Source: Caenorhabditis elegans
Lineage: Eukaryota > Nematoda > Chromadorea > Rhabditida > Rhabditidae
Length of the DNA stretch: 64,000 nucleotides
Assembly (NCBI RefSeq): GCF_000002985.6
Contig: NC_003283.11
Span: 13,950,001-14,014,000, forward strand
Direction of reading: 5' to 3'
A program made the translations under genes and the position numbers. The notes under the pieces were generated by a model, which worked only from the letters and a program-made list of their open reading frames with translations, was not told the origin of the DNA and searched no databases. Positions 4,365-43,600 of the stretch are shown piece after piece (within the stretch, counting starts at the first letter, position 1; each line of letters starts with the position of its first letter).

Positions 4365-6097
4365 ATGTTTTTGGAAATTTTTCGAGTTTGGATTGGATTC
4401 TTCTCGATTTCGTTTATTTTTCTTCCAATTTACCTAGTTTTGGATTGGAAGAAAAGAGGGACTTCCGATGGATTTAGTGCTGTTGTACTGATTATTCCGG
4501 GTATTATGTAAGTTTTTTATTGGATGTCATATTTTACTAGGGAATGGCCAGCTTAGGGGTGAGGTACCTAGAGACGCCACATATGCCAAACGGAAGCTGA
4601 GATCATTGGCTACAAGAATATGCTTTCAAATTCTGCAACGGACCTCTGGGAGTCTGGAAATTTTTGTCTGAAATTATGCTTTTGAATGCTCGAAAGTGGT
4701 AAGAATTTAGAATTTATTACAGAAAAACGTGAAGTTGAATACCTAGAAAAGATGAAAATGTGTTTTGATACAGTGCATACAGTACTTGTTTCAAGTATAA
4801 AACTAATTTTATTAATAAAACGTTTTTCTGTAATAAATTCTAAATTCTTACCACTTTCGAGCATTCAAAAGCATAATTTCAGACAAGAATTTCTAGACTC
4901 CCAGAGGTCCGTTGCAGAATTTGAAAGCATATTCTTGTAGCCAATGATCTCAGCTTCCGTTTGGCATATGTGGCGTCTCTAGGTACCTCACCCCTAAGCT
5001 GGCTATTCCCTAGTTAGCGATGGTCACACCGTGGCAACGAAAGGGATTTTTGTGCCTACAAAATTTACCTAAATGGCCGGTCTTGACAAACTTCAGCACA
5101 TTTACTTGGCATTTACTCAACACTTGACTAAACTTTAATAAAGCGAATTATTCTTGAGTTACTCTACGCCGAACCAAACTGCGAAGCCTAGCAAATCTCC
5201 GATTTGCTAGTCTGCCGTGTCTAAAAATTTGTGTACTTCCAAATTACATCTAATTGAACTTTCAACGAATTTCTTGAGAGAATAAAACCTTCTTAAGTAG
5301 TGACTGATTTTGTAAAATATTGAAATTAGTCCGTTATACGTTAACCTACGGAATTATTCTTTGAAAACTTCAGACAATCCTTCTGGCTACGTCATGGATG
5401 GATGACAAATGAATGGACACATATAATCATAAATACAGTTAACTTGACAGCTCTCAGCTTCTATATTTCTGCATATGCATATTATCAATCGAATAGGGTA
5501 TGTGTCACCTCGTTTTTCGTTCGATGATGTCTTATCTGCTTTTCAGATAGATTTATTTTTAGTCAACTGATCATGACATCATATAAATAAATTTACAGAA
5601 AAACTTGATTGGTCAACTAATTTCTGCTGTTATTATTGTGAAATGTGCATTTTTTTATGTAGACTCTCATGATGCGGAGCACACAAACTCGGCGATGGGA
5701 ACAGTAGCAGCTGGAGCACAAATTTTAGGTCTTGGTGGACGGGTTTATGAAATGGTGGGTGCTTTTTCATTAAGATCTTCGACGAGACTTTTTTTCAGAG
5801 AAGAGCCGTGAAACTTGGTACCACTGAATACATACCCGCATTCATGCAGTTTGCCGTATCAGCTCTTATGGCTCAGTGGTTACTTTTCGGAATTGTTACA
5901 GGAAACCAATTTATTGCTGTGAGTATTCGATGAGTTCCAGTCTTTCTTTAATCTATCAACTAATGCATTTTTAGAATGCAAATGTGGCGGGTTTGACTGC
6001 AAGTGCAATTACATTGTATCTCTATTTCAAATATCCACCACTCACCTGGACAGTTCCACTTTTCAATATTCCACCACAAAATGCCAAGAAAGAGTAA
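4365..6097 (+). CDS. swt-6: SWEET-family sugar transporter, 221 aa
   Basis: Five exons (4365-4507, 5374-5497, 5599-5754, 5799-5918, 5975-6097) join in phase to 221 codons, the normal SWEET length. The product is almost wholly hydrophobic with seven predicted helices in the MtN3 3+1+3 pattern. It has a proline in TM1 ('FLPIYLVLDW'), a charged loop ('KKRGTSDGFSAVVLIIPGI') and a later 'TTEYIPAFMQFAVSALMAQW' segment typical of the second MtN3 repeat, ending in a short charged tail. SWEETs are facilitative, bidirectional sugar carriers of plasma or internal membranes. Intron 1 (866 nt) is enlarged by a foldback element. The downstream gene is convergent, with stop codons about 100 nt apart. The family call is firm; the symbol rests on my memory of the locus (R10D12.9) and may be wrong. 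Confidence 0.85.
4538..5012. mobile_element. Foldback MITE-like element in SWEET intron 1
   Basis: Inverted arms of roughly 195-200 bp (about 4538-4735 and 4810-5012) read outward from a short unique centre. The termini 'tagggaatggccagc' and 'gctggctattcccta' are mirror images differing at one base. Both ends coincide with TA, which fits a Tc1/mariner-type TA target duplication. The arms also share 'ggtacctagagacgcc'. No transposase is encoded, so this looks like a non-autonomous element. Confidence 0.8.
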
Positions 6098-16629: not shown

Positions 16630-17066
16630 CTCTTTGCGCGAATTTACATTGGATTCCTAACGTTCGGAGGAGTTCGATCCACTCATTTGAACTCGTCGTG
16701 CCATAATATCAAATTTTTCGAGTCGAGTTTGGTTCGCTATGATAGACAGAAATAAAATAAATGGTGGAGAAGGCGAGATTACGTGGACAAGACGGTGGAT
16801 TGTGAAGTAGGCCTCGTAAACGTGAATTTCTAACAATTACCTATGGCGCGGCCCTCGACGTTTTTGAAAAAATACATGATATGCGGTTTCTATCGCAGAC
16901 CTCGATCGATGTCTGCTGCCCATTCAGCATAAGGTTTCCCAAAATTTCTTTGCTCTGAACAAAGATCGAACTACATGGTGACAGAACGACACGCGCTTTA
17001 TATATAGCAAATTATATGAAAAATCTAATGGAAACACTCTGAAAATAATATATCTTTTTGGGGTAT
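16630..17066. other. Intergenic segment to the left edge of the palindrome
   Basis: No convincing exon. It contains 'atggcacgacgagttcaaat' near 16703 reading toward the MSP-like ORF on the minus strand, a possible start that runs into TAG after 15 codons. The palindrome begins at 17067 without a transposon terminus that I can recognise. Confidence 0.4.
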
Positions 17067-17865
17067 TGTAGGAGTAATGGGTGATAATTGTAGTTTTAGT
17101 AAAAATGAAATTTCGGTTTCTGAAAGGATAATGAGTACATATATATCAAAGTGGGTGACGAGTATATATTGAAACTCTATTGGTAATTTAGGTGTACTGT
17201 AATATCACTGAGCTCTTTGTGAGCTCTTTGTTGAGTTGTTGTTCTAAATTGTATTGTTCTTAGATTTGGCAATTTATCAAAACTTTGATTGAAAATTGTA
17301 AAAAATCTAAAACAAATATTGTTGCCGAGTCTCTTACTCTTGTTCCAAAACTTAAGAGACTATCTTTGTCATGTACATCAATTTAGACTGTTTCAATTCC
17401 ATTGACATGGGAAAAACACGAAATATCACCGAACATTCCTCAGAGTTTTTTTTCCAGATGTTCCCACTTCTCAAGTTCTCATACAAGAGAAGCAAAACTC
17501 ACTCTAAATTGGTTTAAGACAGTCCAAGTCATACTAGAAAAACGTAGAATAGATTTTAATTACCACTTAGACGGTGAACGTAAAACAATTATCAGAGGCC
17601 TTGGATTTTTAATATCAGAAAAACTTAACTTTTCGGAACATTGGAAAAAGTCAATAAATCTAGCGAAATTTCAGCTGGGTCAACATATTCAATCCGTACA
17701 GTACCTCCAATCCGAAACTATAGTTAAGGATTCAGCGTTCAAGTGAATGAGCACGATAATAAATGAGGGTTTGCCGGAAAATTTCGGTTGAAAAAAGTGG
17801 CAATGAAAGTGGAAATGATTGCGAATGAAATTATATTTATTACAAGAACCAAACAAATCAATGAA

Positions 17866-19856
17866 TCAATAATTAAGGCATAATGAATTTTTTTTATCCA
17901 TGAAATACATTGATGGATTTGCATAAACAGTTTCAATACATTTCTTGCGATTCAAATCGTTTTGAGCAACAAAACTGGCTGGGTAATAGTTTGGATCAAA
18001 ATAATACACGAGTCCTCCGTAACTTGCAGGAGCACAGTCACATCGTTCTGGTTTCCAGGATGAACTCCAATCAGGTTGATAACTCTGATAGTGGGGTATC
18101 GCATTAAGTTTCACTGGCATTTCTGTGAAATTTGTATATTATAGGAGGAAATTTTAAGGCGTTCAACTCTGGTGATAATAGAGAAAAAAAATTTGAAACA
18201 GAAAAATGAGGCAATTTTTCGTGGACAAGTAAGAAAGTTTCTGGAAACTTCTAGTGCATTTTGGAATAAAAAAAATAGAAAACTTGTTGGGAAAATGGTA
18301 ACCTACTTCCACAAGACAGTGTATGTTCAGGTCCAACAGGGGAGCCAAAGTATCCATTGAACCACTTGAATGCCTTGATTCTTCTTGATTCTCCTGGTCC
18401 TCCTGGATTTTTTGAATCTTCTCCAGAACATTCATTATTAATGATTAATGAAGTTGGTCCAAAGATTGGCCCATCATATCCAGCTGCTGAATTCTGTGCA
18501 CCACTATTCCAGTTTCCCATTAAAATATCATGCATTGCTGGTTTTGGTGGTTGAGGTGTCATGTAGAACCAAAGAGAAGCCATAATCGCAAGTGGTGGAT
18601 CCATTTTAGTCATTACAAGATTTGGTTCTTTCAATAAGTCAACTGTAATATTTACAGATTTCAACCAATCTTGGAACTGCCCGTAGTTGTAGTTATACGA
18701 AATTTGAATTCCTCCTCTTCCAAAATAGCATCCTTTATATGGAGCAGCAGGGTTTGAAATTGTTGAATTGGAGCAGGGATAGAAAAAGGTAATCTGATCA
18801 GAAGCAGAACAGTAACGACCAGCAGATGTACATGAATTTCCATCAGTTGGAGAGTGACCAGGTGTTTCTGGGTTTAAAAAGTTACTTGACGGTCCACCTT
18901 CAAACCAGTTATAAAATCCTCCGCGGTAGAAACAATTGGATGCCTCTTGATCGGGAAGCGCGCTGGAAATTATTGTCATGACTAAATGTTACCCTAAGAA
19001 ATTCGTAAAACTGTTCTAAAGTTTTTAAAGGAAAAAAATATACAAAATTTAGTATTTTTTCTAGAAGTAAGAGTTTTATTTGGCAATTTCAACACGTTTG
19101 ATTTCATTTGCAGTAAAATCTCTACGGACGATACAGTACTCCATCTTTAACTATATAAAACTTACGTATAAAGATAGTTGTTGTTTTCTCCAGTTTCTTG
19201 AATTGCATGGGCAAAGAAGGCAGCCAAATCTCGTTTTTTATTCTCGTCCGCAGTATACACCTGGAAGTTATTCAGTTAATACGAAAATTTTCATAGTTAT
19301 TAGTTTAGATTTCGTACCGTGTTATTCACATTAAGAGAAGTTCCAAACTCTGGAAAATATCTGGATGCAATTTTAAAAGCATCGTAAGAATATGGCCAGC
19401 AGCTCGACGGACCCCATCCAAGATTTGCGAATGGAAACAAGTCTTCAAACATTTCTCTGGTGAACCAGGATTCTAGCTGAGAAGCTGGCTTATTGTTTGG
19501 GTCACTAGGTATAGTGCATGACTTTGGTGGTCCCTTTCCAAATTTTGCTGCTTTTGGACATGAACTCGCGTTTCCAAAAAGACCAACAGATGCATTTGCA
19601 CCGTCTGAAACTGTAAAATGCGATTAAAAAGTCATATTAACGTGCAAAATACAGAAACAAAGTTTGAATTTGATATTCGAAATTTCACAAGTTGAGTATA
19701 CTTGCGGGCTTTCTTGCGAAACCCAACTTTTCGATTTGAAGAAAATCAAAGAAACTTTATATACCCTAAAATTCATTAGATCTTACTGAATGCGTTGGCC
19801 GGTAGAGACAAATTAAATGCGATGAGAAGAAATGCGACGAATTGCGCCGACATCAT
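17866..19856 (-). CDS. GH19 chitinase-like secreted protein, left copy, 456 aa
   Basis: This is the mirror image of the right-arm gene, with exons 19856-19787, 19610-19318, 19260-19166, 18962-18307 and 18122-17866, giving 456 codons. A signal peptide is visible at the start ('MMSAQFVAFLLIAF', cleavage after about 'PANA'). The GH19 catalytic segment is 'FFAHAIQETGENNN', with the presumed acid Glu at about residue 143, and the substrate-cleft motif 'GCYFGRGGIQISYNYNYG' lies at about 231-248, equivalent to plant GRGPIQ-type motifs. Many paired cysteines fit secretion. Family chitinases cleave beta-1,4-GlcNAc polymers; fungal or eggshell chitin is the likely target, by inference. Its product is identical to the right copy in the major exon (242 residues compared). 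No promoter difference is visible because flanks are shared. Confidence 0.9.
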
Positions 19857-20014
19857 CTGAAATTCAAAATATCGAAAAGCTTAAGGGAAAATACAGAAAA
19901 TAGAAAAAAAAACTTGTTGGAGTAGACTGATTCAGTTATGAGTAGAAGCTTCTTTTATAGTAGAAAACTGTCTACTGTACCCTGAAACTCTTACTGATCA
20001 AGAAACAGTTATCA

Positions 20015-20560
20015 TCCAATAACATTGAACTTTACTGAAATTGTTATGAGACACTTGACAATGTTATTATCTATCAAAAGTAGTATTCACAAGTAGTCCT
20101 CAAATTATACTCTGTGAATAATAGAAAGTTTTAATGTTGAAAAGTGTGACATTAAACGGATTTTACAATACAGTATTAAGGAGAAATAGAAAAATTATGT
20201 ATACGACTATAGTCCTAGGACATAACGCTAGGACAAATAATTTCATGAGACAGTTTTTCCTGAGCCGGATGTGTAGCATTTAAGTTATTCATTTATTTGC
20301 AAATACAAGACACTCCCTTCCTCGCTTGGTCTTTGAAGATCCTGTCAAAATACTTTTCTGTAACGTTTGTGCAATTCACTAATTTTTCAATGAAAAATTC
20401 GGTTTACGTCACACTTCAAACCATCAAATTTTCTAATATTCACAGAGTTTAATTGAAGGGCTACATTTGAATAGCACTTTTTATTGTTAATAACATTGTC
20501 AGGTGTCTCGATAATCATAACAATTTTAAGGAAGTTCAATGTTATTCGATGTTCAATGTT
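20015..20560. repeat. Degenerate inverted-repeat element inside the left palindrome arm
   Basis: Segments of about 140 bp at 20015-20160 and 20398-20560 are diverged inverted copies of each other. Shared pieces include 'gttcaatgttatt', 'gaaattgttatgagacactt' against 'aggtgtctcgataatcataa', and 'gtagtcctcaaattatactc' against 'gtttaattgaagggctacat'. This looks like an old MITE-type element with long inverted ends lying between the chitinase and DXO genes. The right arm carries the mirror copy at 23856-24401. Confidence 0.6.
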
Positions 20561-20805
20561 ATTCATCTGTTGATTTCCATTTTCTTTGTTTTTTCGATCC
20601 GTAATGTACCGTAATGGTAAGTAAACGTGTGCAAAGTTTTTGTTTCCTTGAAACTTTGTTCATTCACATCACAAACTGGCTCGTTGGGACTTGTGAAAGA
20701 AACAATTAATGTTTGAAAAAGTAAACATATAAAATTCATTCAAAATATTGATGGAATCATTGAAACACTTGGCAAGCATTGAAAAAATGTAATACAATTA
20801 AAAAA

Positions 20806-22039
20806 TTACTCCTCGAAATATTCCAGGAAAGACGAAGAGAGAACGAAATTCCAGTTTTCAGCATTTGTGTTTTCGTATCGAAAATGTTCCCCAACAATTT
20901 TAACAGAAATAGTTTGATCATCATATGGAAGCTTTGACTTGATCGTACTGAGCACGGTGACCAGTCGTGCGAGGCAACGCTGAACACCCCATTTTACATC
21001 CATCATGGGAATATCGTTTGTTTTGATTGTGTCAACCTGAAATTTTTGATGATTTAAATATAAATTGAGTATGAGCCAACTTGGTAGACAAAGTTTTTTT
21101 GGTCTTTGCGGCCAATCAGGATGGTTGGAACATTTCCAAGGAACGATTGGAAGTAGTGTTTCTGGCTGTTCCAGTGTAACCATTTACGTTGCTTTTATTT
21201 CCACAAATTCATCATCTGTAAATGATAGTACTGATTAATTTTTTGTTTCTAGCAAATTTCTCCATGATTGTGATATTTAACAGAGCATTATGAACCGAGG
21301 CTCAAGATAGAAAGGAATCGAAGTATTTTTTACATGTCAAAAACTGTCCGAGTCGGATTTCGAGAATAGTCAAACATTTTGAACTTCGAGAAAAAAGCAA
21401 GATTTTTTTGGTTTGGTTTTCATAGTGAGACCCGGAAGATGTCAAAATAAAAAAATTCTACAATGGATAGTGTCTAATACTCAATAATTCAAAACTTACT
21501 TTTGTCAATCGCATCAACTTCAGAAGCGTAATAGACTTTTATTGTTTCGTTCCTGGTTTCAAAAGACGTTCGGAGTACCACTTTTGAGCATGTCGCATTT
21601 GACACCTTTTCGTTTGGATTATGGTGGTTTCCCAAGTCATTAAGAGTCATGTACTTCTCAAAGTTATACCCTGCTCCGCAATTATCTATATAGGACTTTC
21701 CGAGCTTGTGGAGAAATATTACTCCATTCTTGCGGAGAACTACAATTTCAAACGGTGTTTGGTTATAATTTGACGCTGTTGCAATTTTTGTCAAAATGGA
21801 TCGGTTTGAAAAAATATCGGCGCCGATTGTCTGAAATCTTCCATACTTTTAGAATCAAGAAAAACTAATGTGTACCTCTTTCAATGAAGTTCCTCGTTTA
21901 GCAGTTTTTCGTGTGAAGTCACAAATGGATTCATAAATATCTCCATCTCCCTCGTCTTTGAAGCGCTCACATCCAAGGGTGAGATCCAGAGGATCTTTCA
22001 ACAGACCAAAAAGATCAGGATTTTCATTTAAACGATTTG
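20806..22039 (-). pseudogene. DXO/RAI1-like decapping nuclease, left copy, 5'-truncated and frame-broken
   Basis: Coding homology runs from 22039 down to 20806 and mirrors the right-arm copy. It lacks exon 1 and the first ~24 nt of exon 2, because the palindrome arm stops inside exon 2, so it has no native start or promoter. Exon 3 (21830-21500) is open and carries the family E-hydrophobic-D motif 'ASEVDAID'. Exon 4 carries 'FVEIK' (E-hydrophobic-K) but hits TAA two codons later. DXO enzymes remove aberrant 5' caps (for example unmethylated or NAD caps) from RNA, using metal ions held by those acidic residues. The left copy cannot make a normal protein as drawn. Confidence 0.8.
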
Positions 22040-22376
22040 CCTACTTTGCCAAAACCCTAACTACTTCAAGTTAAAAAACAATTTTTTTGCACCATTATTT
22101 TTAAAATAGTCGTGGTGGGCTCACTTTTTTTAGTATTAATTTTACCGCGATTTGTGTGTTCTCCTCGCTTTATATCTTTTACCTTTCAACATTTTGTCAA
22201 ATCTTGATTTTTGTATCATTTCAGAATAGTCTCATCAATACCATAAAAAATGGAAGTTCAGCTCAAATTCGAGCACGTTGGGACTTACTTCAAGCAACGT
22301 GATAAGTGAGTTTCTAGGCTTCAAGTGAATTAAACGAATATAAACATTTATAGGACTGCAATCCCCGGACAGCTCC
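22040..22376. other. 337-bp spacer at the palindrome centre
   Basis: This is unique sequence between the arms. It contains exon 1 of the right DXO-like gene (22250-22305), its intron 1 and the first bases of exon 2, plus a 'catttcag' near 22218-22225 that could be a trans-splice acceptor. Arm homology ends abruptly at 22039 and 22377 within the exon 2 sequence 'aaatcgtttaaatg'. Confidence 0.85.
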
Positions 22377-23610
22377 CAAATCGTTTAAATGAAAATCCTG
22401 ATCTTTTTGGTCTGTTGAAAGATCCTCTGGATCTCACCTTTGGATATGAGCGCTTCAAAGACGAGGGAGATGGAGATATTTATGAATCCATTTGTGACTT
22501 CACACGAAAAACTGCTAAACGAGGAACTTCATTGAAAGAGGTACACATTAGTTTTTCTTGATTCTAAAAGTATGGAAGATTTCAGACAATCGGCGCCGAT
22601 ATTTTTTCAAACCGATCCATTTTGACAAAAATTGCAACAGCGTCAAATTATAACCAAACACCGTTTGAAATTGTAGTTCTCCGCAAGAATGGAGTAATAT
22701 TTCTCCACAAGCTCGGAAAGTCCTATATAGATAATTGCGGAGCAGGGTATAACTTTGAGAAGTACATGACTCTTAATGACTTGGGAAACCACCATAATCC
22801 AAACGAAAAGGTGTCAAATGCGACATGCTCAAAAGTGGTACTCCGAACGTCTTTTGAAACCAGGAACGAAACAATAAAAGTCTATTACGCTTCTGAAGTT
22901 GATGCGATTGACAAAAGTAAGTTTTGAATTATTGAGTATTAGACACTATCCATTGTAGAATTTTTTTATTTTGACATCTTCCGGGTCTCACTATGAAAAC
23001 CAAACCAAAAAAATCTTGCTTTTTTCTCGAAGTTCAAAATGTTTGACTATTCTCGAAATCCGACTCGGACAGTTTTTGACATGTAAAAAATACTTCGATT
23101 CCTTTCTATCTTGAGCCTCGGTTCATAATGCTCTGTTAAATATCACAATCATGGAGAAATTTGCTAGAAACAAAAAATTAATCAGTACTATCATTTACAG
23201 ATGATGAATTTGTGGAAATAAAAGCAACGTAAATGGTTACACTGGAACAGCCAGAAACACTACTTCCAATCGTTCCTTGGAAATGTTCCAACCATCCTGA
23301 TTGGCCGCAAAGACCAAAAAAACTTTGTCTACCAAGTTGGCTCATACTCAATTTATATTTAAATCATCAAAAATTTCAGGTTGACACAATCAAAACAAAC
23401 GATATTCCCATGATGGATGTAAAATGGGGTGTTCAGCGTTGCCTCGCACGACTGGTCACCGTGCTCAGTACGATCAAGTCAAAGCTTCCATATGATGATC
23501 AAACTATTTCTGTTAAAATTGTTGGGGAACATTTTCGATACGAAAACACAAATGCTGAAAACTGGAATTTCGTTCTCTCTTCGTCTTTCCTGGAATATTT
23601 CGAGGAGTAA
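22250..23610 (+). pseudogene. DXO/RAI1 (Dom3-like) decapping nuclease, right copy, frame broken in exon 4
   Basis: Exons 22250-22305, 22354-22540 and 22586-22916 align exactly in length and phase with the intact paralogue at 29571-30712. The product contains 'FSNRSILTKIATAS', 'YNFEKYMTLND', the metal-ligand motif 'SEVDAID' and 'DEFVEIK'. In exon 4 (from 23201) the intact paralogue has 'MKSTKSDHGKWLHW', whereas here 14 nt are missing between the second Thr codon and 'GTAAATGGTTACAC', giving an immediate TAA at 23230-23232. Downstream coding continues in another frame, and exon 5 (to 23610) ends 'SSSFLEYFEE' like its relatives. The expected donor before exon 5 is also weakened (CAAGTTGG rather than CAGGTAAG). 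Translation would stop after about 198 residues, keeping most catalytic motifs but losing the C-terminal third. I call it a recent pseudogene, although a truncated product is possible. Confidence 0.75.
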
Positions 23611-23855
23611 TTTTTTAATTGTATTACATTTTTTCAATGCTTGCCAAGTGTTTCAATGATTCCATCAATATTTTGAATGAATTTTATATGTTTACTTTTT
23701 CAAACATTAATTGTTTCTTTCACAAGTCCCAACGAGCCAGTTTGTGATGTGAATGAACAAAGTTTCAAGGAAACAAAAACTTTGCACACGTTTACTTACC
23801 ATTACGGTACATTACGGATCGAAAAAACAAAGAAAATGGAAATCAACAGATGAAT

Positions 23856-24401
23856 AACATTGAACATCGAATAACATTGAACTTCCTTAAAATTGTTATG
23901 ATTATCGAGACACCTGACAATGTTATTAACAATAAAAAGTGCTATTCAAATGTAGCCCTTCAATTAAACTCTGTGAATATTAGAAAATTTGATGGTTTGA
24001 AGTGTGACGTAAACCGAATTTTTCATTGAAAAATTAGTGAATTGCACAAACGTTACAGAAAAGTATTTTGACAGGATCTTCAAAGACCAAGCGAGGAAGG
24101 GAGTGTCTTGTATTTGCAAATAAATGAATAACTTAAATGCTACACATCCGGCTCAGGAAAAACTGTCTCATGAAATTATTTGTCCTAGCGTTATGTCCTA
24201 GGACTATAGTCGTATACATAATTTTTCTATTTCTCCTTAATACTGTATTGTAAAATCCGTTTAATGTCACACTTTTCAACATTAAAACTTTCTATTATTC
24301 ACAGAGTATAATTTGAGGACTACTTGTGAATACTACTTTTGATAGATAATAACATTGTCAAGTGTCTCATAACAATTTCAGTAAAGTTCAATGTTATTGG
24401 A
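23856..24401. repeat. Degenerate inverted-repeat element inside the right palindrome arm
   Basis: Mirror copy of the 20015-20560 element, with diverged inverted segments at about 23856-24018 and 24256-24401. It separates the DXO-like gene from the chitinase promoter. Confidence 0.6.
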
Positions 24402-24559
24402 TGATAACTGTTTCTTGATCAGTAAGAGTTTCAGGGTACAGTAGACAGTTTTCTACTATAAAAGAAGCTTCTACTCATAACTGAATCAGTCTACTCCAAC
24501 AAGTTTTTTTTTCTATTTTCTGTATTTTCCCTTAAGCTTTTCGATATTTTGAATTTCAG

Positions 24560-26550
24560 ATGATGTCGGCGCAATTCGTCGCATTTCTTCTCATCGCATT
24601 TAATTTGTCTCTACCGGCCAACGCATTCAGTAAGATCTAATGAATTTTAGGGTATATAAAGTTTCTTTGATTTTCTTCAAATCGAAAAGTTGGGTTTCGC
24701 AAGAAAGCCCGCAAGTATACTCAACTTGTGAAATTTCGAATATCAAATTCAAACTTTGTTTCTGTATTTTGCACGTTAATATGACTTTTTAATCGCATTT
24801 TACAGTTTCAGACGGTGCAAATGCATCTGTTGGTCTTTTTGGAAACGCGAGTTCATGTCCAAAAGCAGCAAAATTTGGAAAGGGACCACCAAAGTCATGC
24901 ACTATACCTAGTGACCCAAACAATAAGCCAGCTTCTCAGCTAGAATCCTGGTTCACCAGAGAAATGTTTGAAGACTTGTTTCCATTCGCAAATCTTGGAT
25001 GGGGTCCGTCGAGCTGCTGGCCATATTCTTACGATGCTTTTAAAATTGCATCCAGATATTTTCCAGAGTTTGGAACTTCTCTTAATGTGAATAACACGGT
25101 ACGAAATCTAAACTAATAACTATGAAAATTTTCGTATTAACTGAATAACTTCCAGGTGTATACTGCGGACGAGAATAAAAAACGAGATTTGGCTGCCTTC
25201 TTTGCCCATGCAATTCAAGAAACTGGAGAAAACAACAACTATCTTTATACGTAAGTTTTATATAGTTAAAGATGGAGTACTGTATCGTCCGTAGAGATTT
25301 TACTGCAAATGAAATCAAACGTGTTGAAATTGCCAAATAAAACTCTTACTTCTAGAAAAAATACTAAATTTTGTATATTTTTTTCCTTTAAAAACTTTAG
25401 AACAGTTTTACGAATTTCTTAGGGTAACATTTAGTCATGACAATAATTTCCAGCGCGCTTCCCGATCAAGAGGCATCCAATTGTTTCTACCGCGGAGGAT
25501 TTTATAACTGGTTTGAAGGTGGACCGTCAAGTAACTTTTTAAACCCAGAAACACCTGGTCACTCTCCAACTGATGGAAATTCATGTACATCTGCTGGTCG
25601 TTACTGTTCTGCTTCTGATCAGATTACCTTTTTCTATCCCTGCTCCAATTCAACAATTTCAAACCCTGCTGCTCCATATAAAGGATGCTATTTTGGAAGA
25701 GGAGGAATTCAAATTTCGTATAACTACAACTACGGGCAGTTCCAAGATTGGTTGAAATCTGTAAATATTACAGTTGACTTATTGAAAGAACCAAATCTTG
25801 TAATGACTAAAATGGATCCACCACTTGCGATTATGGCTTCTCTTTGGTTCTACATGACACCTCAACCACCAAAACCAGCAATGCATGATATTTTAATGGG
25901 AAACTGGAATAGTGGTGCACAGAATTCAGCAGCTGGATATGATGGGCCAATCTTTGGACCAACTTCATTAATCATTAATAATGAATGTTCTGGAGAAGAT
26001 TCAAAAAATCCAGGAGGACCAGGAGAATCAAGAAGAATCAAGGCATTCAAGTGGTTCAATGGATACTTTGGCTCCCCTGTTGGACCTGAACATACACTGT
26101 CTTGTGGAAGTAGGTTACCATTTTCCCAACAAGTTTTCTATTTTTTTTATTCCAAAATGCACTAGAAGTTTCCAGAAACTTTCTTACTTGTCCACGAAAA
26201 ATTGCCTCATTTTTCTGTTTCAAATTTTTTTTCTCTATTATCACCAGAGTTGAACGCCTTAAAATTTCCTCCTATAATATACAAATTTCACAGAAATGCC
26301 AGTGAAACTTAATGCGATACCCCACTATCAGAGTTATCAACCTGATTGGAGTTCATCCTGGAAACCAGAACGATGTGACTGTGCTCCTGCAAGTTACGGA
26401 GGACTCGTGTATTATTTTGATCCAAACTATTACCCAGCCAGTTTTGTTGCTCAAAACGATTTGAATCGCAAGAAATGTATTGAAACTGTTTATGCAAATC
26501 CATCAATGTATTTCATGGATAAAAAAAATTCATTATGCCTTAATTATTGA
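24560..26550 (+). CDS. GH19 chitinase-like secreted protein, right copy, 456 aa
   Basis: Exons 24560-24629, 24806-25098, 25156-25250, 25454-26109 and 26294-26550 join in phase to 456 codons. Two adjacent ATGs (24560, 24563) follow a 'gaatttcag' acceptor, which suggests trans-splicing onto the start. The signal peptide covers residues 1 to about 21. The catalytic 'AHAIQETGEN' (Glu about 143) and 'FGRGGIQISYNYNYG' (about 233-247) identify GH19. A C-terminal cysteine-bearing segment ('KPERCDCAPASYGG') is retained. A probable TATA-like 'tataaaag' lies about 100 bp upstream (near 24458). Nematode GH19 genes are few and are thought of as secreted chitinases or chitinase-like proteins; induction by fungi or pathogens is inference. 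AATAAA is near 26575. Confidence 0.9.
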
Positions 26551-27349
26551 TTCATTGATTTGTTTGGTTCTTGTAATAAATATAATTTCATTCGCAATCA
26601 TTTCCACTTTCATTGCCACTTTTTTCAACCGAAATTTTCCGGCGAACCCTCATTTATTATCGTGCTCATTCACTTGAACGCTGAATCCTTAACTATAGTT
26701 TCGGATTGGAGGTACTGTACGGATTGAATATGTTGACCCAGCTGAAATTTCGCTAGATTTATTGACTTTTTCCAATGTTCCGAAAAGTTAAGTTTTTCTG
26801 ATATTAAAAATCCAAGGCCTCTGATAATTGTTTTACGTTCACCGTCTAAGTGGTAATTAAAATCTATTCTACGTTTTTCTAGTATGACTTGGACTGTCTT
26901 AAACCAATTTAGAGTGAGTTTTGCTTCTCTTGTATGAGAACTTGAGAAGTGGGAACATCTGGAAAAAAAACTCTGAGGAATGTTCGGTGATATTTCGTGT
27001 TTTTCCCATGTCAATGGAATTGAAACAGTCTAAATTGATGTACATGACAAAGATAGTCTCTTAAGTTTTGGAACAAGAGTAAGAGACTCGGCAACAATAT
27101 TTGTTTTAGATTTTTTACAATTTTCAATCAAAGTTTTGATAAATTGCCAAATCTAAGAACAGTAAAATTTAGAACAACAACTCAACAAAGAGCTCACAAA
27201 GAGCTCAGTGATATTTCAGTACACCTAAATTATCAATAGAGTTTCAATATATACTCGTCACCCACTTTGATATATATGTACTCATTATCCTTTCAGAAAC
27301 CGAAATTTCATTTTTACTAAAACTTCAATTATCACCCATTACTCCTACA
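26551..27349. other. 3' flank of the right chitinase within the palindrome
   Basis: The first ~30 bp hold the polyadenylation signal. The rest shows no exon with acceptable splice signals. The open frame of about 114 codons on the minus strand here is mirrored in the left arm, but its composition does not look coding and it has no splice support. Confidence 0.4.
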
Positions 27350-27350
27350 G

Positions 27351-28405
27351 TTCTGTTTTGATAAATCGATTTTGAAGAAAAGTGATTTGCATTAATTCAC
27401 CTTGTAGATTATATTTTCTTTGTTAGTTTGACTTTCAGAACTTATTGCTAAAACATGTGTGTTCAAATTTTTGGCAGAAATTGCTCACTCAATTCGCTTT
27501 TTTACTGGGTGGAAAAAACTAAATTTCTGAATCGAATACTCTGCATTTTTTCTGAAATACATTCTGGGCACTTATCAATGTTCAAAGCCTTGAATTCGAA
27601 CATGAAGTATCTATTTTTGAAAAAAAATTCGAAAAATGGCTGGAAATTAATTTGATCACCTAGCAGCTAAGTACCCTTTCTGATTGACTTCAGGAGCGTT
27701 TGTATGTTATATCTACTCAATTTTAGAAGCAAGAAATATCGCATAATTTTATGAAGAGTGCCTTTCCATTTTTTCAGAAATTTTAATTCAAGAAAATGAG
27801 AGTATTCAACATTTCGATGTTAGGAAAAAATGATGGAAGCATGCAAATAACAATGAGAATGAATACACCAATAAGTGGGCGGGGTTTGCTACGCTTTCAC
27901 ACTTCTCGCAAAAGTGCGTTTTAAGACTGAGGAAGCCGGCGAAGCTCGATGAAAATCTTGCTGGAAGTGATCAAATTTTTTAATCAAAATTAAACAATCA
28001 TATAAAATAATACATCGAACAAAAGTTGGTCCATTGAGAGTGAGTAAAAATTTGTTGCTTTAAAACTCGCTTGATTGAGTGAGCAATTTCTTTTTTTAAT
28101 GTGACAATTGGAAACCGTAAAAAATGTATTCTCCATGAGACCTCACAAATGAAGAAGCTAAAAATTGTATTGCATAGTATCAGGAAACACTATATCCAAT
28201 ATTATGTGCATTTATAATTCAATTTTCATATAATTTTGCGTTTTTTAAAATTATATACTGATTTCATCGTTCCTTGGGTTGCCAAAAATTTGAACACACA
28301 TGTTTTAGCAATAAGTTCTGAAAGTCAAACTAACAAAGAAAATATAATCTACAAGTTGAATTAATGCAATTCACTTTTCTTCAAAATCGATTTATCAAAA
28401 CAGAA
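27351..28405. repeat. Inverted repeat with 126-bp arms abutting the palindrome
   Basis: Arms 27351-27476 and 28280-28405 are inverted copies with about two mismatches in the part compared; the outer ends read 'ttctgttttgataaatcg' and 'cgatttatcaaaacagaa'. The ~800-bp interior is unique apart from a segment at 27870-28150 related to the DNA upstream of the intact DXO gene. No transposase ORF is seen. The left arm starts one base after the palindrome homology stops. Confidence 0.85.
27860..28160 (-). promoter_or_regulatory. Orphan copy of a DXO-gene upstream region
   Basis: The block 'ggcggggtttgctacgcttt' plus 'ttttaagactgaggaagccg' and, 160 bp on, 'gagtgagtaaaaatttg' and 'gagacctcaca' aligns colinearly with 30818-31090, the 5' flank of the intact DXO gene. 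No DXO exon follows on the expected (left) side, so it is a detached upstream region left by duplication. Confidence 0.65.
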
Positions 28406-29570
28406 ACAAATGGCAGCTTTTTTCAAACGGTCTCGGTTTGAATGATTCATCTCAAGTTGTGATTGTACAAAAATAACACTCGAGTTTAAAGTGCACATTT
28501 TCAATCATGGGGTAGGGTAGAAGACAAAGCATTGAGATGATTCATAAACGATCGTTTGACACTGTTGACATTGAGGAAAAAACTCTGAGAATTTGACACT
28601 GACCATCAGGAGAAATTTTTGTTTGTTCTAAAAGTATCGGAATAACATCTTCACAATTTGAACTTTGTTTAGTTGAAGAAGATATTTGTTAAAAAATCAA
28701 CTTTAGAACTTAGAACTTTGTCTAAAAATTTAGCACACCAACACAAAGAAGCTCCGTTACTGAGTACTACGTGCCTACATAGGTACTAATGTGGTTCTGT
28801 ATAATGTTTATTGGGAAGTCTAGGAGAACATTTCTCCGATTTTTTAAATACATTAAACTTATCGAGAAATTGAAACCAGCGTTTGCAACATTCTTATATC
28901 GCAAATAGGACAATTTTGGTAAGGTTCAAGTAATTTGGCCATCTGGGGTCTTTCGTAGTTCTACTTTGTTAAAAATGTTAACCATCTGTTTTAGAATTTT
29001 TTTTGTTTGAGAAAAAAATTGCAGCAAATCTTTTTTATGTTCAGAGAGTCTGACGTCACGATGATTGTGTAGAAAATCAATTATCAATTGTGAAATGTTG
29101 CCCCACTCTCAACGAGATATTGAGCCCGGACCAAAAGAGAAGGACACGTGTCCCAGCAGAGTCGTCAGCAGGTCAAAGCGAGTGAGCAGAGCTATTATAC
29201 GGGGGAAACATTACCGATACAAGATGTGACGTTATGACCATTTGTCTACTGGAGGCTCCCTCTAGAACTCATGGGATATCATACGAATTCTCCCCTCCCC
29301 AGTTCATGTTGCAGGCCAAATGGCAAAAGGACCTCGTGCGCGTGATACAAGACAAAACCGTTGCAGTTTTTTCCTCAACACTTTGCGCATATATGTACAT
29401 CCTGCTAACTCGCTGGGTCTGGAAACTGGAAGCAATGATTTCGTTAGAAAAGTTTTAAAAATTGATTAGGTAACTTTATTCAAGATAGAGGTTGATAGAA
29501 TTATTGCAAATTTAATGGAAGCGTTGGAACAGTATGTAAATGAAAACAAATAACAAAAATTTGAAAACAA
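28406..29570. other. Intergenic DNA, no gene recognised
   Basis: AT-rich to about 29050, then a more GC-balanced stretch (29100-29380, for example 'agcccggaccaaaagagaag'). There is an open frame of 74 codons at 29234-29458, but no splice sites or recognisable motif support it. Confidence 0.4.
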
Positions 29571-30712
29571 TCACCGTTCGAAATACTCCAGGAAAGAAGG
29601 ATGAATAAAATTCCAATCTTCAGCCTTTGCATTTTCGTAACTAATTTCACCATCAGCAATCTTAACAGAAATAGCTTGATCATCATCTGGAAGCTTTGAC
29701 ATGATTTTATTGAGCACTGTGAACAGCTGTGCAAGGCAATTCTGAACCTTCCACTTCACATCCATCTTCGGAATTTCGCTAGTTTTGATTTTGTCAACCT
29801 GAAATTTGAGTTGGAGAATTAAATGTAACATAAGAACTCACTTACCTGGTACACACAGTCATTTTGATCCTTTCGTCCAATTAGGATAGTTGGAACGTTT
29901 CCAAGGAACGATTGGAAGTAGTGCTTCTGGCTGTTCCAGTGTAACCATTTACCATGATCCGATTTGGTAGATTTCATCTCCACGAAATTTCCATCTGTAG
30001 ATACTTCTTTTAATTGTATTTACTCAATATTTCAAAACTTACTTTTGTCAACCGCATCAACTTCAGAAGCGTAATAGACTTTTATTGTTTCTTTTCTGCT
30101 TACGAAAGACGTTCGGAGAACAACTTTTGAGCAAGTCGCATTTGATACCTTTTCGTTTGGATTGTGGGGATGTCCTACTTCGTTCAGGGTCATATACTTT
30201 TCAAAATTGTAGCCACCTCCATATTTGCCTTCATACGATTTCTCATTCTTGTAGAGAAAAATAACGCCGTTCTTCCGGAGCGCAATAATTTCAGAAGGCT
30301 CTCGATTAAATTTCGATGCTGTCGCTATTGTTGTCAGATTGGATCGGTTCGAGAAAATATCGGCGTCGATTGTCTGAAATTCTCAATTCTTTTAAACCAT
30401 AAAGTCTATTTATGTTTTACCTCTTTCAAGGAAGTTCCTCGGTTGGCAGTTTTTCGTGTGAAGTCAAAAATGGATTCATAAACATCGCCACCTCCTTCGT
30501 CTTTGAAATCTTTACAGCCAAGAGAAAGAGCGAGAGGATATTTCAGCTTCCCATAAAGATCCGGATCATCATTCAGCCGATTTGGGAGTTTTCCTGGGAT
30601 TGCTTTCCTGGAAAATGCAAATATTCGTTTATTATACATAATTCTTAGAAACTCACTTGTCATGTTGCTTGAAGTAAGTCCCGACTTGTTCGAATTTGAC
30701 TTGAACTGCCAT
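29571..30712 (-). CDS. DXO/RAI1 (Dom3-like) decapping nuclease paralogue, intact, 316 aa
   Basis: Exons 30712-30657, 30607-30421, 30373-30043, 29994-29846 and 29798-29571 join in phase to 316 codons. The fold begins 'MAVQVKFEQVGTYFKQ'. The metal-binding set is visible: 'ASEVDAVD' (E-x-D, about residue 185-187) and 'NFVEMKSTKS' (E-x-K, about 197-199), with 'YNFEKYMTLNE' and 'KWLHWNSQKHYFQSFLGNVP' as conserved surroundings. It ends 'HPSFLEYFER'. The family hydrolyses non-canonical 5' caps and degrades the RNA 5'-3'. Worms carry many small, rapidly evolving members whose individual substrates are unknown. This is the only copy in the window without a frame break and is the reference for reading the damaged paralogues. 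The 5' flank has a 'ggcggggtttgctatgcctt' block shared with the orphan segment near 27880. Confidence 0.85.
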
Positions 30713-31567
30713 TTTTGATGCTGTAGTTGAGACAATTCTGAAATAATATTTTGGCAAGGGTGTGATAAAACAAGTGAAACACACAACTTGCGGCGAGCAT
30801 AAATATTCCAAAAAGGAGGCGGGGTTTGCTATGCCTTCACATTTGTTGCGAAAGTTTGGTTTAAGACTGAGGAAACCAACGAAGTGAGGTTTTTGCTGGA
30901 ATTGAATATGCTCTCTTATCATAAATAAACAATCATCGGTGTGTAATTCATTGAGGTCAACACAGAAATGGTTAGTGAGTAGAAAAAAATCTTTCAAATC
31001 TAACTCCTGCTTCGGTGGATAGTTTCATTTTTGAAATTTGACAAATGGATACCGTAAGGATGGTATTTTCTCACGAGACTTCACAATCGAAAAAACTAAA
31101 AATCGGATGAACTGGTAGCGAGAAACGATATTAACATGTACATTTGTAATTCAATTTGTTTTATTCATATATGTATGAAGTCACATTGACTTTTTCAATT
31201 ACATGATACATATAGTATTTCTAAAATTGATCGAACATTTTAGTTTTCAGAATAAAACCAACCGTGTCTATGTGTTCTTACAGTAACCAACGATTAGATG
31301 GAGCAAATTCTTTTTAAAAAGGTAAAGTTGTCAAGCTGGCAATAATTATATCAAGAAAACAATCTAGAAAAATACATAATTTCAAATTATGTATTCTCTG
31401 GGAAGGCGAGTTGACCAGTTTGATCTTTTCTCGTACTACTGTTATGTTATTTCAATTGTGATAAAATATGTTCGAAGCATGAGGGTATTTATTCAACTTT
31501 TCAACCGGCAAAATTATTAGGAAACTGGGCAGATCTACAAGAGAAAAATAATAGCAATACAAAAGTA
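30713..31567. other. Upstream region of the intact DXO gene and downstream flank of the next paralogue
   Basis: 30790-31180 is duplicated (diverged) at about 27840-28270. The remainder is AT-rich, with no exon seen. An acceptor-like 'caattgtctc' arrangement near 30730 suggests the gene's transcripts start close to the ATG. Confidence 0.4.
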
Positions 31568-32971
31568 CTACTCGAAATATTCCAGAAAAGAAGGATCTAC
31601 AAAATTCCAATCTCCTGCGTTCGTACTCTCGTAAAAAATATGTTGACCGTTTAATTTAACAGAAATAGCTTCATCATCATACTGGAGCTTCGACTTGATA
31701 GTTGAGAGGACATTGAATAGCTTCTCCAAGCACACATTTGGATCCCATTTGACATCCATTTCAGGAATCTTGTTGGTCCAGTACGTATCGACCTAGAATT
31801 AAATCTTTTTTGTAGATCAGCAGTAAAAACTCACTCTCTGAACATAGTTGTCAAAGTTCTTTTGGCCAATAATGATGCATGGAACATTGCCAATATACGA
31901 CTGAAAATAGTTTTTCAGACTATTTCGCTCCAACCACTTCCATTTTCCAAAAACCGTTGTTTTCAGCTCGACGAATTTCTTTTCTGTAAAAAATTAGCTA
32001 CGTAAACAACGTATCTTATTGTAGAGTACTCTCGGACTTAACTTTAGTTTTTTACGTTACTATTCCCCATCTCATATGAGATGTGTAACCGCGATCGTAC
32101 CGTTGACAGAATGAAAAGTAGGTTACGGTACGAAACGTGGCGAGATATATGCTATATAGATATAGATATTGTAGGAATGCATTTTTGTGAAAAACATATT
32201 ATAATTAACAATAAATAAAAAACTTACTCGAGTTGATAGCATCTACTTCAGCTGCATAAAAGACTTTCAGTTTTTCATCGTCATTCTTGAATGTTGTTCG
32301 AAGAACGACCTTCGAGCATTCCGCATTCGAAACTTTCTCGTTCGGATTTCGAAGCTCTCCATCTTCATTCAACGTCATGTATTTTTCAAAATTATATCCC
32401 ATTCCTTTATTCGGAGTATCCTTTTCGTTTTTATGCAGAAAAATGAATCATTTTTGCGAAGTGCAATGATTTCTGTTTTGACTGGATTGTAGGCAGAAGT
32501 TGCAAGTAATGTTAGAATATGACGATTTGAGAAGAAGTCTGCTCCGATCACCTTAAAATTATTACTTTAGTGCAAGTGGATGTTTCCAGTATTCATTTTT
32601 TAAACAGACATTTGAAGTCCCTCTCAGGTTTACGTCATTGCACGTTTTCCTTCTGTTTTCAATTTTACCTAGAAACATACCTTTGTCAACGGAGTTCCTC
32701 TTTCAGAAGTTTTCTTCACAAAATTGAAAATTGAATGGAATGAATCTCCCATTCCTTCATCACGGAACTCCTCACATCCTAGCATTAAATCAAGCGGCTC
32801 GTCCAGTTTTCCATAAAAGGATCGGAGTTCATTTAGTTGATTAGGAAGGCCACCGGGCTCTGCTGTCCTAAAAGAATATACATATGTATTTTTTTAAAGT
32901 ATAGTTATTACTAACTTGTCTCGACGCTTATTAAAGGTTCCAACTTTCTGGAAATTGATGACCACTGGCAT
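31568..32971 (-). pseudogene. DXO/RAI1-like paralogue with single-nucleotide frame break
   Basis: It has the same five-exon structure as the intact gene: ATG at 32971 ('MPVVINFQKVGTFNKRRDK'), exon 2 from about 32861 ('TAEPGGLPNQLNELRSFYG'), exon 3 from about 32551 ('VIGADFFSNRHILTLLATS'), exon 4 from about 31984 ('KKFVELKTT', the E-x-K motif) and a last exon ending at 31568 ('DPSFLEYFE'). In exon 3 the frame breaks near 32450: after 'IIALRKNDS' a run of five T encodes one base too few, and the correct frame resumes as 'FLHKNEKDTPNKGMGYNFEKYM' (written here only to show resumption; 'AAEVDAI' follows). Everything else looks functional, so it is a very young pseudogene, an error, or a gene rescued by an unrecognised splice. 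Confidence 0.7.
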
Positions 32972-33405
32972 TTAGGAAGGAGCGAACTGTAAGAAACGAA
33001 AATTTAGGAAGTGCACATCGATTTAAACGCCATTGATAAGAAGCCAACGAAAATTAGAAGCTGATTAAAAAACAAAGATGGTGAGTAAGAGGTATAATAA
33101 CAGCAGAGTTCGATGCATGTTTGTTACGCAACACCGTTGAACGCGTGTAAACGTCCCGCATTTTCTGTAGATCAAACCTAGTGTGTAGTTTGAACTTGTA
33201 TGAGTGACGAAAAGGAGCGCCATTTGTAACCCAAAGGAGATCATTCCCTGAAGACTAGAGGAAAATTTGAAACTAAATATTCCGAGGGAAGATGAAGAAG
33301 TGCAAATTGTTAATGAATTTTTGGTTTTTTTTTTCAATTTGGGTCAACCATTTTATTTATTTTTCCGTTAATTTTTTTTGCTGGTAAATCACATAAAATT
33401 ACTTA
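32972..33405. other. Upstream flank of the frame-broken DXO paralogue
   Basis: No coding exon is seen. It is the presumed promoter of the minus-strand DXO paralogue. Confidence 0.35.
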
Positions 33406-34005
33406 AAGGTGGGGTACCTAAATTGGAGACTTTGCTTTTTTAGACTCAAAATGGTCCAAAACTACCAAATTTCGTAATGAGACGTATTGAAAATTATTCA
33501 AAAAAAAGTTATGGCGCCTCAAAGTTTTGGAAAAATGACCTATTTTTAGCTAAAATCTCAAATTTTGGCTACTTCTCGGTGTCGCAGCGGTTGGAACTTA
33601 ATTTTTATTAAATTATCATCCTTTAATGTACGTTTTGGCATTTTATTTCGTGTTATTTCATTTATTGAAATGCTTTTTCAGTCGATGCGGGCACAAACTT
33701 TTATCGTATTTGTACCCGCATCGACTGAAAAAGCATCTCAATCAACGAAATAACACCTAATAAATTGCCAAAACGTGCATTAAAAGACGATAATCAAATA
33801 AAAATTAAGTTCCAACCGCTGAGACACCGAGAAGTTGCCAAAATTTGAGATTTTAGCTAAAAACAGGCCATTTTTCCAAAACTTTGAGCGGGCATAACTT
33901 TTTTTGACACATTTTCAGAACGTCTTACGAAATTTGGTAGTTTCGGACCATTTTGGGTCTAAAAATGCAAAGTCTGCAATTTTTGTACCCCACCTTTAAG
34001 TTAAG
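33406..34005. mobile_element. ~600-bp foldback element
   Basis: Outer ends 'acttaaaggtggggtacc' and 'gtaccccacctttaagtt' are inverted copies. Homology continues inward through 'actaccaaatttcgtaatga' and 'gcggttggaacttaattttt' on both sides to a central hairpin with 'cagtcgatgcgggcacaaac' and its inverse near 33680 and 33712. There is no ORF. A diverged partial relative occurs in ric-7 intron DNA at about 37960-38110. Confidence 0.8.
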
Positions 34006-40600: not shown

Positions 40601-43600
40601 ATGACATTTCAAACTAAAAACTCAAAGAAAAAGTTGTCGTTCTTTGAAACAAGTCACACTTATAGTTTGTAGAAGAATCACACGAAAGACCAAATTTTCT
40701 AGTAAATTTTTTGTAAACGTGGGAAAATTGTAGTGATGTTGAGTAATGTAGTGTGGTCGAAGCATTTCTGTTGAAACTCACCAAATCATGCAACTTTTTC
40801 AGATCTTTTCGCATTGAAGACGGACTGTAGCCTGGCCATTTATTCATAAAATCGCATTCTTGGACTGCATTGTCGAATCGCTGGAAAATAAACATATATT
40901 AGTTTTAATCTCCAAAAAAAATAATTTCTGGACTCGGAGATTTTGTTTAGAAAGTAATCTACCAAATCGCGCGGGTTTATAAAATTTGCCTCCCATAAGA
41001 ATAAGTCTACTTTAAGCCAGTTTTTGCGTGGTTTTTGTTTTGTTGTTCTCCTCTCATACATCGGATTTTACTGTAATCCTATAAAGTGATTCAATTTCCT
41101 ATTCTCATATCGTAGACATGTTGATTTGAAAGGAAACTGTCTCGTTTGACGTATTATAATAATCATTATTATTATTCACAGGCATTATTCTTCCTTTTTC
41201 CAGCTAGTCGACAGTTTCTGAAACTGTGGACACTTGGGGTTTTGAGCTCAAAAATCACAAGACAGAATATTAAATACTTCCACTTTTTTCACAGGTCAGA
41301 TCTATCTGCAACAAAATGTAGTCAGAATGATACCAGATATAGGGTCATTTGACAAGGGTCCTTCTTCCTTTATTGACGTCAATAATGAAATCAGAACAAG
41401 AAATTGGGTGAAAAGTGCAAAGGGCACAAGATGTACTTTTGCCATTTTTTTAAATTTCTTTTTGAGCATCTTCGTGACCATTCAATCATTTTCAGAAGCG
41501 TTCTTCACACGCAAATGTGCCACTTCCACACCTCTCAAAAATTTGAAATTTTCACGCTGAAAATTGGATTCCTCATTTTGTGTGGTTCCTGGACACTTTA
41601 AGATTCACTAGGATTAAATTGAGATTAACAGTGACGCCCGGGAGCTCGGACTTTTCGGTTTTTTTCGGATGGGAATGCCGACTAGAAAAGTTACATTCGT
41701 TGAAGTGAGACATATTTAAAAGTACAAAACGATTTGTTGATCTTCTATACTTTATCAAATGTCTCTTTAAAGCTACTGGCAAACATTCAAATGATCACCT
41801 CATAAGGCGTGGTAGATCAATCACTAAACGTGCAGATTGTCTTTAAAAAAATTTTAACTCCAAAATTTGGTCGTTCAAATAATGAGTCAACGTTGTGGCT
41901 CACAAAACAGAAGAGTTCAGAAATATTTTTGGTGCTGGTAGCGATGCGGATAACTAATTAGTAGAGGCTAACTGAAATCATTCACGTCAAGAGGCAAAAG
42001 AACACCGAATCGCTGAGTCAAAAAGAGTTCTGATCAACAGTAGGGAAGATCGCACTGTGTAGAATGATCTCAAATGGCGCCCTGTTTGGTACGGTGAAAT
42101 ATAGGGCTGTACAACCGGACGTCCGGTCGTCCGAACCGGACGCACATGCGTCCGGTTGGGGGTAGCTATCCACGACGGCCGACAATTTCCGAGTTTCGCC
42201 ACTCACTATAAAACTGCTGATTAAGTATAGTGAGTGGCGAAACTCGGAAATTGTCGGCCGCCGTGGAAACCTACCCCAAAACCGGACGCAGTGCGTCCGG
42301 TGGTGTCAAAATCGGACGACCGGACGCCGATTTGTACAGCCCTAGTGAAATAAGTACACGTCAAAAACCCCAATTAGTGAATAAAGGGATATCCGTGTTA
42401 TTTTTTTCCGATCTCCTCATTCTGAAAACCTTACTATCTATATGACATAACTTGGCATTCTTCCCTTGATCCTTATGTACTTTTAACTTAATCAAAACAT
42501 GAGCTGACCATTTATCTTAACATTATCACCCGTATCTGTCACATGTTTCTAAAAAACACCTCCTGATCTTCAGCTTTTCTTTTCCACCTCCTTTTTCCTA
42601 TTTTCCAGCTCTGTTCAAAGCCCGCCTTTCGTTACTAAAAAACTGACTCCGCCCATTTCAGCTTCATCATATAAACAGAGTTGGCAGTAGGGCTAATCAC
42701 TACTTCGAGTCACTCGGACATCTGCCGATCTCTTTTTTTCGATCTCACTGAAACGGTCGACATGTTGAACACTCCAACTGTTATTCTCATCTCTTCACTC
42801 GTCCTGGCCTCGGGTTACAGTGTTCGTTCAACTGCTAAGAACACCGTTCAAGATGCTCACGATCAACTCACAAAGAGCATTCGGTGCTGGGAGCCGATTG
42901 ATGTCAACAATCCATCAAAAGGATACACGATGAGCGAGCCGATCTACGAGTTGTGTAGCTACATGCCAGACCCAAAGGACTACAACAAGTACTACGTCAA
43001 TGGAGTTCAAATGGATTCCGATGATTACACCAACATCTTGGCCATGTACGGAAATCCAATCCCAGGACACGCTGTGATCAACGTTTGTCTACAAGAGGTA
43101 GGTTCAATATTATCAGGCTTAATATAATTGGAGGAATCGGTTTCTTATATAAAATCACTTCAGGCATTCCAATTCCACGCTGCAAACCATCCATCTCAGG
43201 TCAGCCTACGTTGTTTGTGCAAAAGAGACGGTTGCAATCTACCAAAAGGATTTACAACCTTCCTCGATTTCAATAAGCTCCCGATGCCAGAAGTCTTCTA
43301 CTAATTCCTGAATCCTTTCGTCCAATAATATGCTATTCGTCGGGATGTCGCCAGTCTTCTTTTCCTATAATCCCCATTTTTGAATAATTCCTGATTTTCT
43401 TCTTCCTTGAACCCGTGATAATGACCATTTCTGATAATTGAACAAACGAACTGAATAAAGATGAGAAACGTTGCAGTATTCTGAGTTGTTCCATAATCCC
43501 AGAATCTTCAAATGATCGATTGCTTACGAATATTTGAAAGAAAAAGTGAACAAAGACTATGGTATACATACTCTCCCAACTATAAGTTAGCCGACTATTT

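Follow-up and report, generated by a model that had tools for sequence, protein, structure and literature searches.

A near-perfect 10-kb palindrome beside eol-1 on Caenorhabditis elegans chromosome V and its probable origin by backward copying of one arm

The window analysed here is a stretch of 64,000 nucleotides of Caenorhabditis elegans chromosome V (contig C5; NC_003283.11, positions 13,950,001 to 14,014,000), and positions are counted from its first letter unless the contig is named. It covers the eol-1 locus, which is the site of a near-perfect inverted repeat of about 10 kb. The evidence modestly favours an origin in which template-switching repair copied the left arm of this palindrome backwards and so formed the right arm, doubling an intact chitinase gene and a broken DXO gene.

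Structure and gene content of the palindrome

Aligned to the reverse complement of its partner, each arm measures 4,973 bp and differs from the other at 8 positions (99.84% identity, 0 indels), around a spacer of 337 bp. The pairing of position x with 44416-x is exact and ends at 17066 on the outside and at 22040 on the inside. A preliminary description of this DNA had given these coordinates, the arm length, the base pairing, the spacer, the lack of indels and near-perfect identity; the alignment bore out all of them, and the same pair of arms was recovered independently. An origin by chance is out of the question. The main features are as follows.

17067..22039, + strand: left arm, likely the original; carries a chitinase gene and a broken DXO gene, both on the - strand
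22377..27349, - strand: right arm, reverse complement of the left arm and likely its backward copy; chitinase and broken DXO genes on the + strand
17866..19853, - strand: left GH19 chitinase gene, 5 exons, 453 aa, exact mirror of the right copy
24563..26550, + strand: right GH19 chitinase gene; its spliced product is C. elegans protein P0008 (453 aa), with domain PF00182
20806..22039, - strand: left DXO/RAI1 pseudogene copy, without exon 1; same 14-bp loss as the right copy, stop at 21184-21186
22250..23610, + strand: right DXO/RAI1 pseudogene copy; a loss of 14 bp against eol-1 precedes a TAA at 23230-23232 that closes the frame after 201 codons
22040..22213, strand not assigned: left half of the spacer, 174 bp
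22214..22376, + strand: right half of the spacer, 163 bp; 5' end and exon 1 of the right DXO copy, with its ATG at 22250

The mismatches (17091, 17183, 17200, 17251, 17254, 17772, 21970 and 21977 in left-arm numbering) are clustered toward both ends of the arm, with a longest identical run of 4,197 bp between them. Identity thus extends through introns and intergenic DNA as well as coding sequence, and the chitinase genes form a divergent pair. The arms also contain a smaller inverted repeat of about 165 bp and 77% identity, placed in both between DXO pseudogene and chitinase gene (20004-20167 / 20391-20560; mirrored in the right arm at 23856-24025 / 24249-24412). Among the papers listed in the literature searches, none describes this palindrome in its title or abstract. 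An inverted duplication of 12.9 kb on chromosome V has been reported between two N2-derived assemblies (PMC10634987), in passages that give no position by which to tie it to this locus.

The two chitinase genes are complete, carry the PF00182 domain and have identical coding sequences, and they run away from the centre as the preliminary description had it. The exons of the right copy are 24563-24629, 24812-25098, 25156-25250, 25454-26109 and 26294-26550, and the N-terminus of the protein looks, by eye, like a signal peptide. Other chitinase-related stretches were found by a search of the C. elegans genome on C5 near 1.18, 6.42, 10.12 and 10.14 Mb. Two GH19 chitinase copies in opposite orientation (loci L064 and L065) stand about 28 kb apart at C5 ~10.116 Mb (+) and ~10.145 Mb (-), the match to the second covering part of the protein only. 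The simplest durable outcome of the palindrome would be a second, identical chitinase gene, and the palindrome itself requires no role. In practice, neither reads nor small RNAs nor guide RNAs that match this chitinase can be assigned to one copy rather than the other.

The two DXO copies that had been described are both present and resemble eol-1, and neither is intact. Both lack 14 bp relative to eol-1, just past the motif-IV segment, and run into an early stop; neither keeps the frame open through the C-terminal third, as a functional DXO/RAI1 decapping nuclease would. In the left copy exon 1 is missing as well, and a TAG lies in frame (22041-22043) one codon ahead of the start of homology. 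The 14-bp loss is derived, since eol-1 does not share it and the paralogue at 31571-32971 aligns to EOL-1 across the site without a gap. A protein search with the N-terminal 192 aa of this right copy retained 7 of 53 candidates, of which none surpassed EOL-1 (75%) in similarity, in line with an unannotated pseudogene. The right half of the spacer is homologous to the 5' end of eol-1 (79% to 30585-30748). The left half had no match elsewhere among those listed in the genome search, and none of 10 local alignments scored above the best of its 200 shuffles (top score 40 versus 43, near 30765-30818).

The source arm and the proposed origin

The direction of copying was assessed from outgroup sequences and from the order of genes to the right of the palindrome, where these features lie.

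27351..27476, + strand: 126-bp segment abutting the right arm, an inverted copy of 28280-28405, 124/126 identical
28280..28405, - strand: partner of the 126-bp segment, 2 differences
27855..28225, + strand: relic of an eol-1-type upstream region, 371 bp, in the same orientation as 30795-31157 and 67-68% identical to it
29571..30712, - strand: eol-1, intact (EOL-1, 316 aa); the spliced product of five exons equals protein P0001 exactly
31571..32971, - strand: further DXO paralogue, upstream of eol-1, frameshifted in this reference

Seven of the 8 mismatches could be polarised, and at all seven the left arm holds the ancestral base and the right arm the derived one (two-sided binomial, 0.016). 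The outgroup was a diverged copy at C5:12269756-12270039 for four sites, eol-1 and the 31571-32971 copy for two, and a dispersed repeat for 17772, where all 11 repeat copies that cover the site agree (15 loci given). This repeat, at 17483-17785 downstream of the left chitinase gene, has many copies of 75-90% identity on several chromosomes. The left-arm DXO copy, eol-1 and the further paralogue all lie on the - strand. Moreover, the relic at 27855-28225 sits right of the palindrome, in the place expected for the promoter region of a DXO gene in the left arm; no DXO match was found directly to the left of this relic, and the left-arm DXO copy is the natural candidate for the missing gene. Because the seven polarised sites, the common orientation of the DXO genes and the position of the relic all point the same way, the left arm probably came first, the right arm being a probable backward copy of it inserted between the left-arm DXO gene and its upstream relic. 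As in a template-switch duplication, the inverted copy adjoins its source, with the polarity given by the seven sites and by gene order.

The right edge may carry a second trace of the same event. The right arm ends at 27349 and the 126-bp segment begins at 27351, with one extra base between them. Among the matches listed in the genome search, in which the best candidates only were scored, this segment had no further copy. It is a likely candidate for template-switch filler rather than a transposon. A transposon reading of 27351-28405, as an element with terminal inverted repeats (TIR) or a miniature inverted-repeat transposable element (MITE), was at first preferred and was lowered when the genome search listed no other copy and the eol-1-type upstream relic was found inside it. 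The only matches listed for this element were 27351-28405 itself and a 68% stretch upstream of eol-1, and its ends show no direct duplication of at least 4 bp, with ACA at 27347-27349 and again at 28406-28408.

The event would have started from a chitinase-and-DXO block on the - strand next to eol-1, within an array of DXO genes in the same direction. Repair synthesis would have folded back and copied the block outward from the DXO promoter to position 17067, then picked up the 126-bp inverted piece from about 0.8 kb ahead and continued rightward. At the centre, the promoter and exon 1 of the left copy would have been lost, leaving the unique spacer. Later gene conversion from arm to arm, a weaker proposition, may have maintained the identical 4.2-kb core. 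Local rearrangement driven by the palindrome, as proposed in the preliminary description, is plausible, the indirect signs being the 126-bp inverted repeat next to the right arm and a reported tandem eol-1 paralogue (PMC13129544).

Several observations weigh against this origin. Mismatch 17091 has no outgroup and was not polarised, and once neighbouring mismatches are merged the polarity falls to 4 of 4 events (p = 0.125). Clear microhomology was not seen at the right junction, and the 126-bp inverted repeat may instead be what is left of a transposon. Exon 1 and the 5' sequence are found in the right DXO copy only, which taken alone makes the right arm the original.

The last of these leads to the converse history, in which the right arm is the original, the left arm is the inserted copy and exon 1 merely fell outside the copied stretch. 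This was downgraded after the polarity tests and the analysis of gene order, and we regard it as unlikely: the left arm is ancestral at all seven polarised differences, its DXO copy agrees in orientation with the neighbouring DXO genes, and the upstream relic lies right of the palindrome. Recombination between the arms of a palindrome is also able to flip the spacer, thereby shifting exon 1 from one side to the other.

The identical core and the fidelity of the reference

With 8 differences placed uniformly, a mismatch-free run of 4,197 bp arose in 6 of 2,000,000 draws, which marks the core as non-random. Three readings of this core were considered, of which arm-to-arm gene conversion ranks first, as a putative and weaker part of the history proposed above. 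Such conversion is an explanation already put forward for inverted gene pairs in C. elegans (PMC1803023; PMC3966223). The 126-bp repeat, with 2 differences in 126 positions, is more diverged than the arms with 8 in 4,973 (p = 0.024) and than the core, chosen post hoc, with 0 in 4,197 (p = 0.0008); because its divergence exceeds theirs, it would favour homogenisation of the arms if it is of the same age. On the other side, the statistic for the core weakens when mismatches are merged (0.0005 for 5 events, 0.015 for 3 clusters), and conversion alone shaping the ends would be expected to leave derived changes on both arms, whereas all seven are on the right.

This one-sidedness is better fitted by a recent inverted duplication without gene conversion, in which the core is too young to have diverged and the end mismatches stem from error-prone synthesis near the junctions of the copied arm. 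The seven polarised changes are all found in the right arm, at distances of 62-705 bp from a junction. Such a young copy is a possibility of some standing, though we think it improbable, given that the core should have diverged more if the 126-bp repeat is equally old, an argument that is itself weak since this repeat also lies at a junction.

Alternatively, the palindrome may be real and the identity of its core owed in part to the reference, reads of both arms having been merged wherever they extended beyond the reach of unique sequence. The mismatches do all fall within 705 bp (outside) or 69 bp (inside) of unique sequence, roughly the length of a Sanger read, which also tells against conversion, and at the same locus about 2 kb are reported to be missing from the N2 reference (PMC13129544). 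Merging leaves the derived state of all seven right-arm changes unexplained, and we judge it quite improbable. Mixed reads are, in addition, normally caught in finishing. That the second arm is wholly an artefact of assembly or cloning, with one arm only in the animal, is hardly credible, despite the reference trouble reported next door (PMC13129544), since a false fold-back would show neither the 8 differences between the arms nor the exon and spacer sequence confined to one side.

If every element of the history proposed here holds, the locus would preserve the full footprint of one fold-back repair event in an array of antiviral genes. Its parts would be a backward copy of 5 kb, an inverted filler of 126 bp drawn from 0.8 kb ahead, a central loss of promoter, errors in the copied arm only, and later conversion that has kept the chitinase genes identical while the DXO pair of the same arms is dead. 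This conjunction we advance only tentatively, as it is doubtful that all its parts are right.

The eol-1 array and comparison with known systems

P0001 was identified as EOL-1 because it carries the residues C162, R168, E197, W208 and W211, the very residues altered in published eol-1 alleles (PMC13129544). The gene has been linked to antiviral and mitochondrial stress responses (PMC7735679). The frameshift of the paralogue at 31571-32971 amounts to about 1 base, near 32420-32450. By PCR and Sanger sequencing, the N2 reference was reported to be about 2 kb short at the eol-1 locus and to lack a tandem extra eol-1 paralogue (PMC13129544). Two paralogues are reported upstream of eol-1 in the same source, at the place where the reference is short, so the single copy at 31571-32971 may represent two copies collapsed into one. 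Immediately upstream of the DXO array lies a foldback at 33401-34001 (about 600 bp in total, 87% over its length), and foldbacks resembling it occur at 4536-5014 and 42135-42301. The microRNA miR-243 targets a DXO paralogue on chromosome I, and its sequence was therefore searched for; none was found in the window at up to 3 mismatches, and the locus turned out to be eol-1.

The preliminary description had also suggested that such a palindrome is able to extrude cruciforms and to yield long double-stranded RNA (dsRNA) from antisense readthrough. Extrusion is unsupported, as a unique spacer of 337 bp parts the arms; spacers, or the loss of central symmetry, are reported to stabilise palindromes (PMC8701086). 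Nor is dsRNA the expected product, because genes transcribed outward in both arms give identical, non-complementary mRNAs; it would need inward transcription or antisense readthrough across the centre. The same two features, the outward genes and the unique spacer, make it very improbable that the palindrome was retained for its structure, whether as a cruciform or as a hairpin RNA feeding endogenous small interfering RNAs (siRNAs). In support of such retention, targets of ERI-6/7 pathway siRNAs are enriched for recent gene duplicates, as reported in passages that do not name the present locus (PMC3213143).

What sets this locus apart is that the source arm, the copied arm and both edges are readable in a natural palindrome of a model animal, beside eol-1. 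In panels of C. elegans strains one could test directly whether the palindromes of a selfing animal are homogenised by arm-to-arm conversion, and how fold-back duplications form and stabilise.

The palindromes of the human Y chromosome likewise have nearly identical arms, a unique spacer and duplicated genes. The present one is much smaller, autosomal and carried by a mostly selfing worm, and conversion is inferred here from one reference sequence; for the human Y palindromes, arm-to-arm gene conversion has been described (PMC1803023, PMC5490193). Closer parallels exist within the species. Newly arisen gene duplicates in C. elegans are reportedly often neighbours in inverted orientation (PMC2728529). 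An inverted repeat of 3.8 kb at hsp-16 was already published in 1985 (title cited in PMC3966223), and long inverted repeats of paralogous pairs, the hsp-16 locus and F44E5.4/F44E5.5 among them, have been described (Zhao et al. 2007, PMC1803023). Like these pairs, the palindrome unites divergent genes and their intergenic DNA in a near-perfect repeat around a short unique spacer, with conversion proposed (PMC1803023); unlike them, its arms reach 4,973 bp and each hold an intact gene and a dead one, and the arm of origin can be inferred.

Inverted copy number variants attributed to fold-back or template switching, by microhomology-mediated break-induced replication (MMBIR), fork stalling and template switching (FoSTeS) or origin-dependent inverted-repeat amplification (ODIRA), also show an inverted copy beside its source, secondary junctions and a central spacer (PMC10766186). 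ODIRA starts from an inverted triplication (PMC10766186), whereas two copies only are present here, and neither short inverted repeats nor clear microhomology is shown at the switch points. The centre resembles palindromic transgene junctions stabilised by asymmetric central deletion, in that one side is gone and the symmetry broken (PMC8701086); here the locus is natural and the deletion putative, and an origin by two switches would give the same end product. Mirror duplications are thus already known in C. elegans, and this palindrome is a larger and unusually readable example of them.

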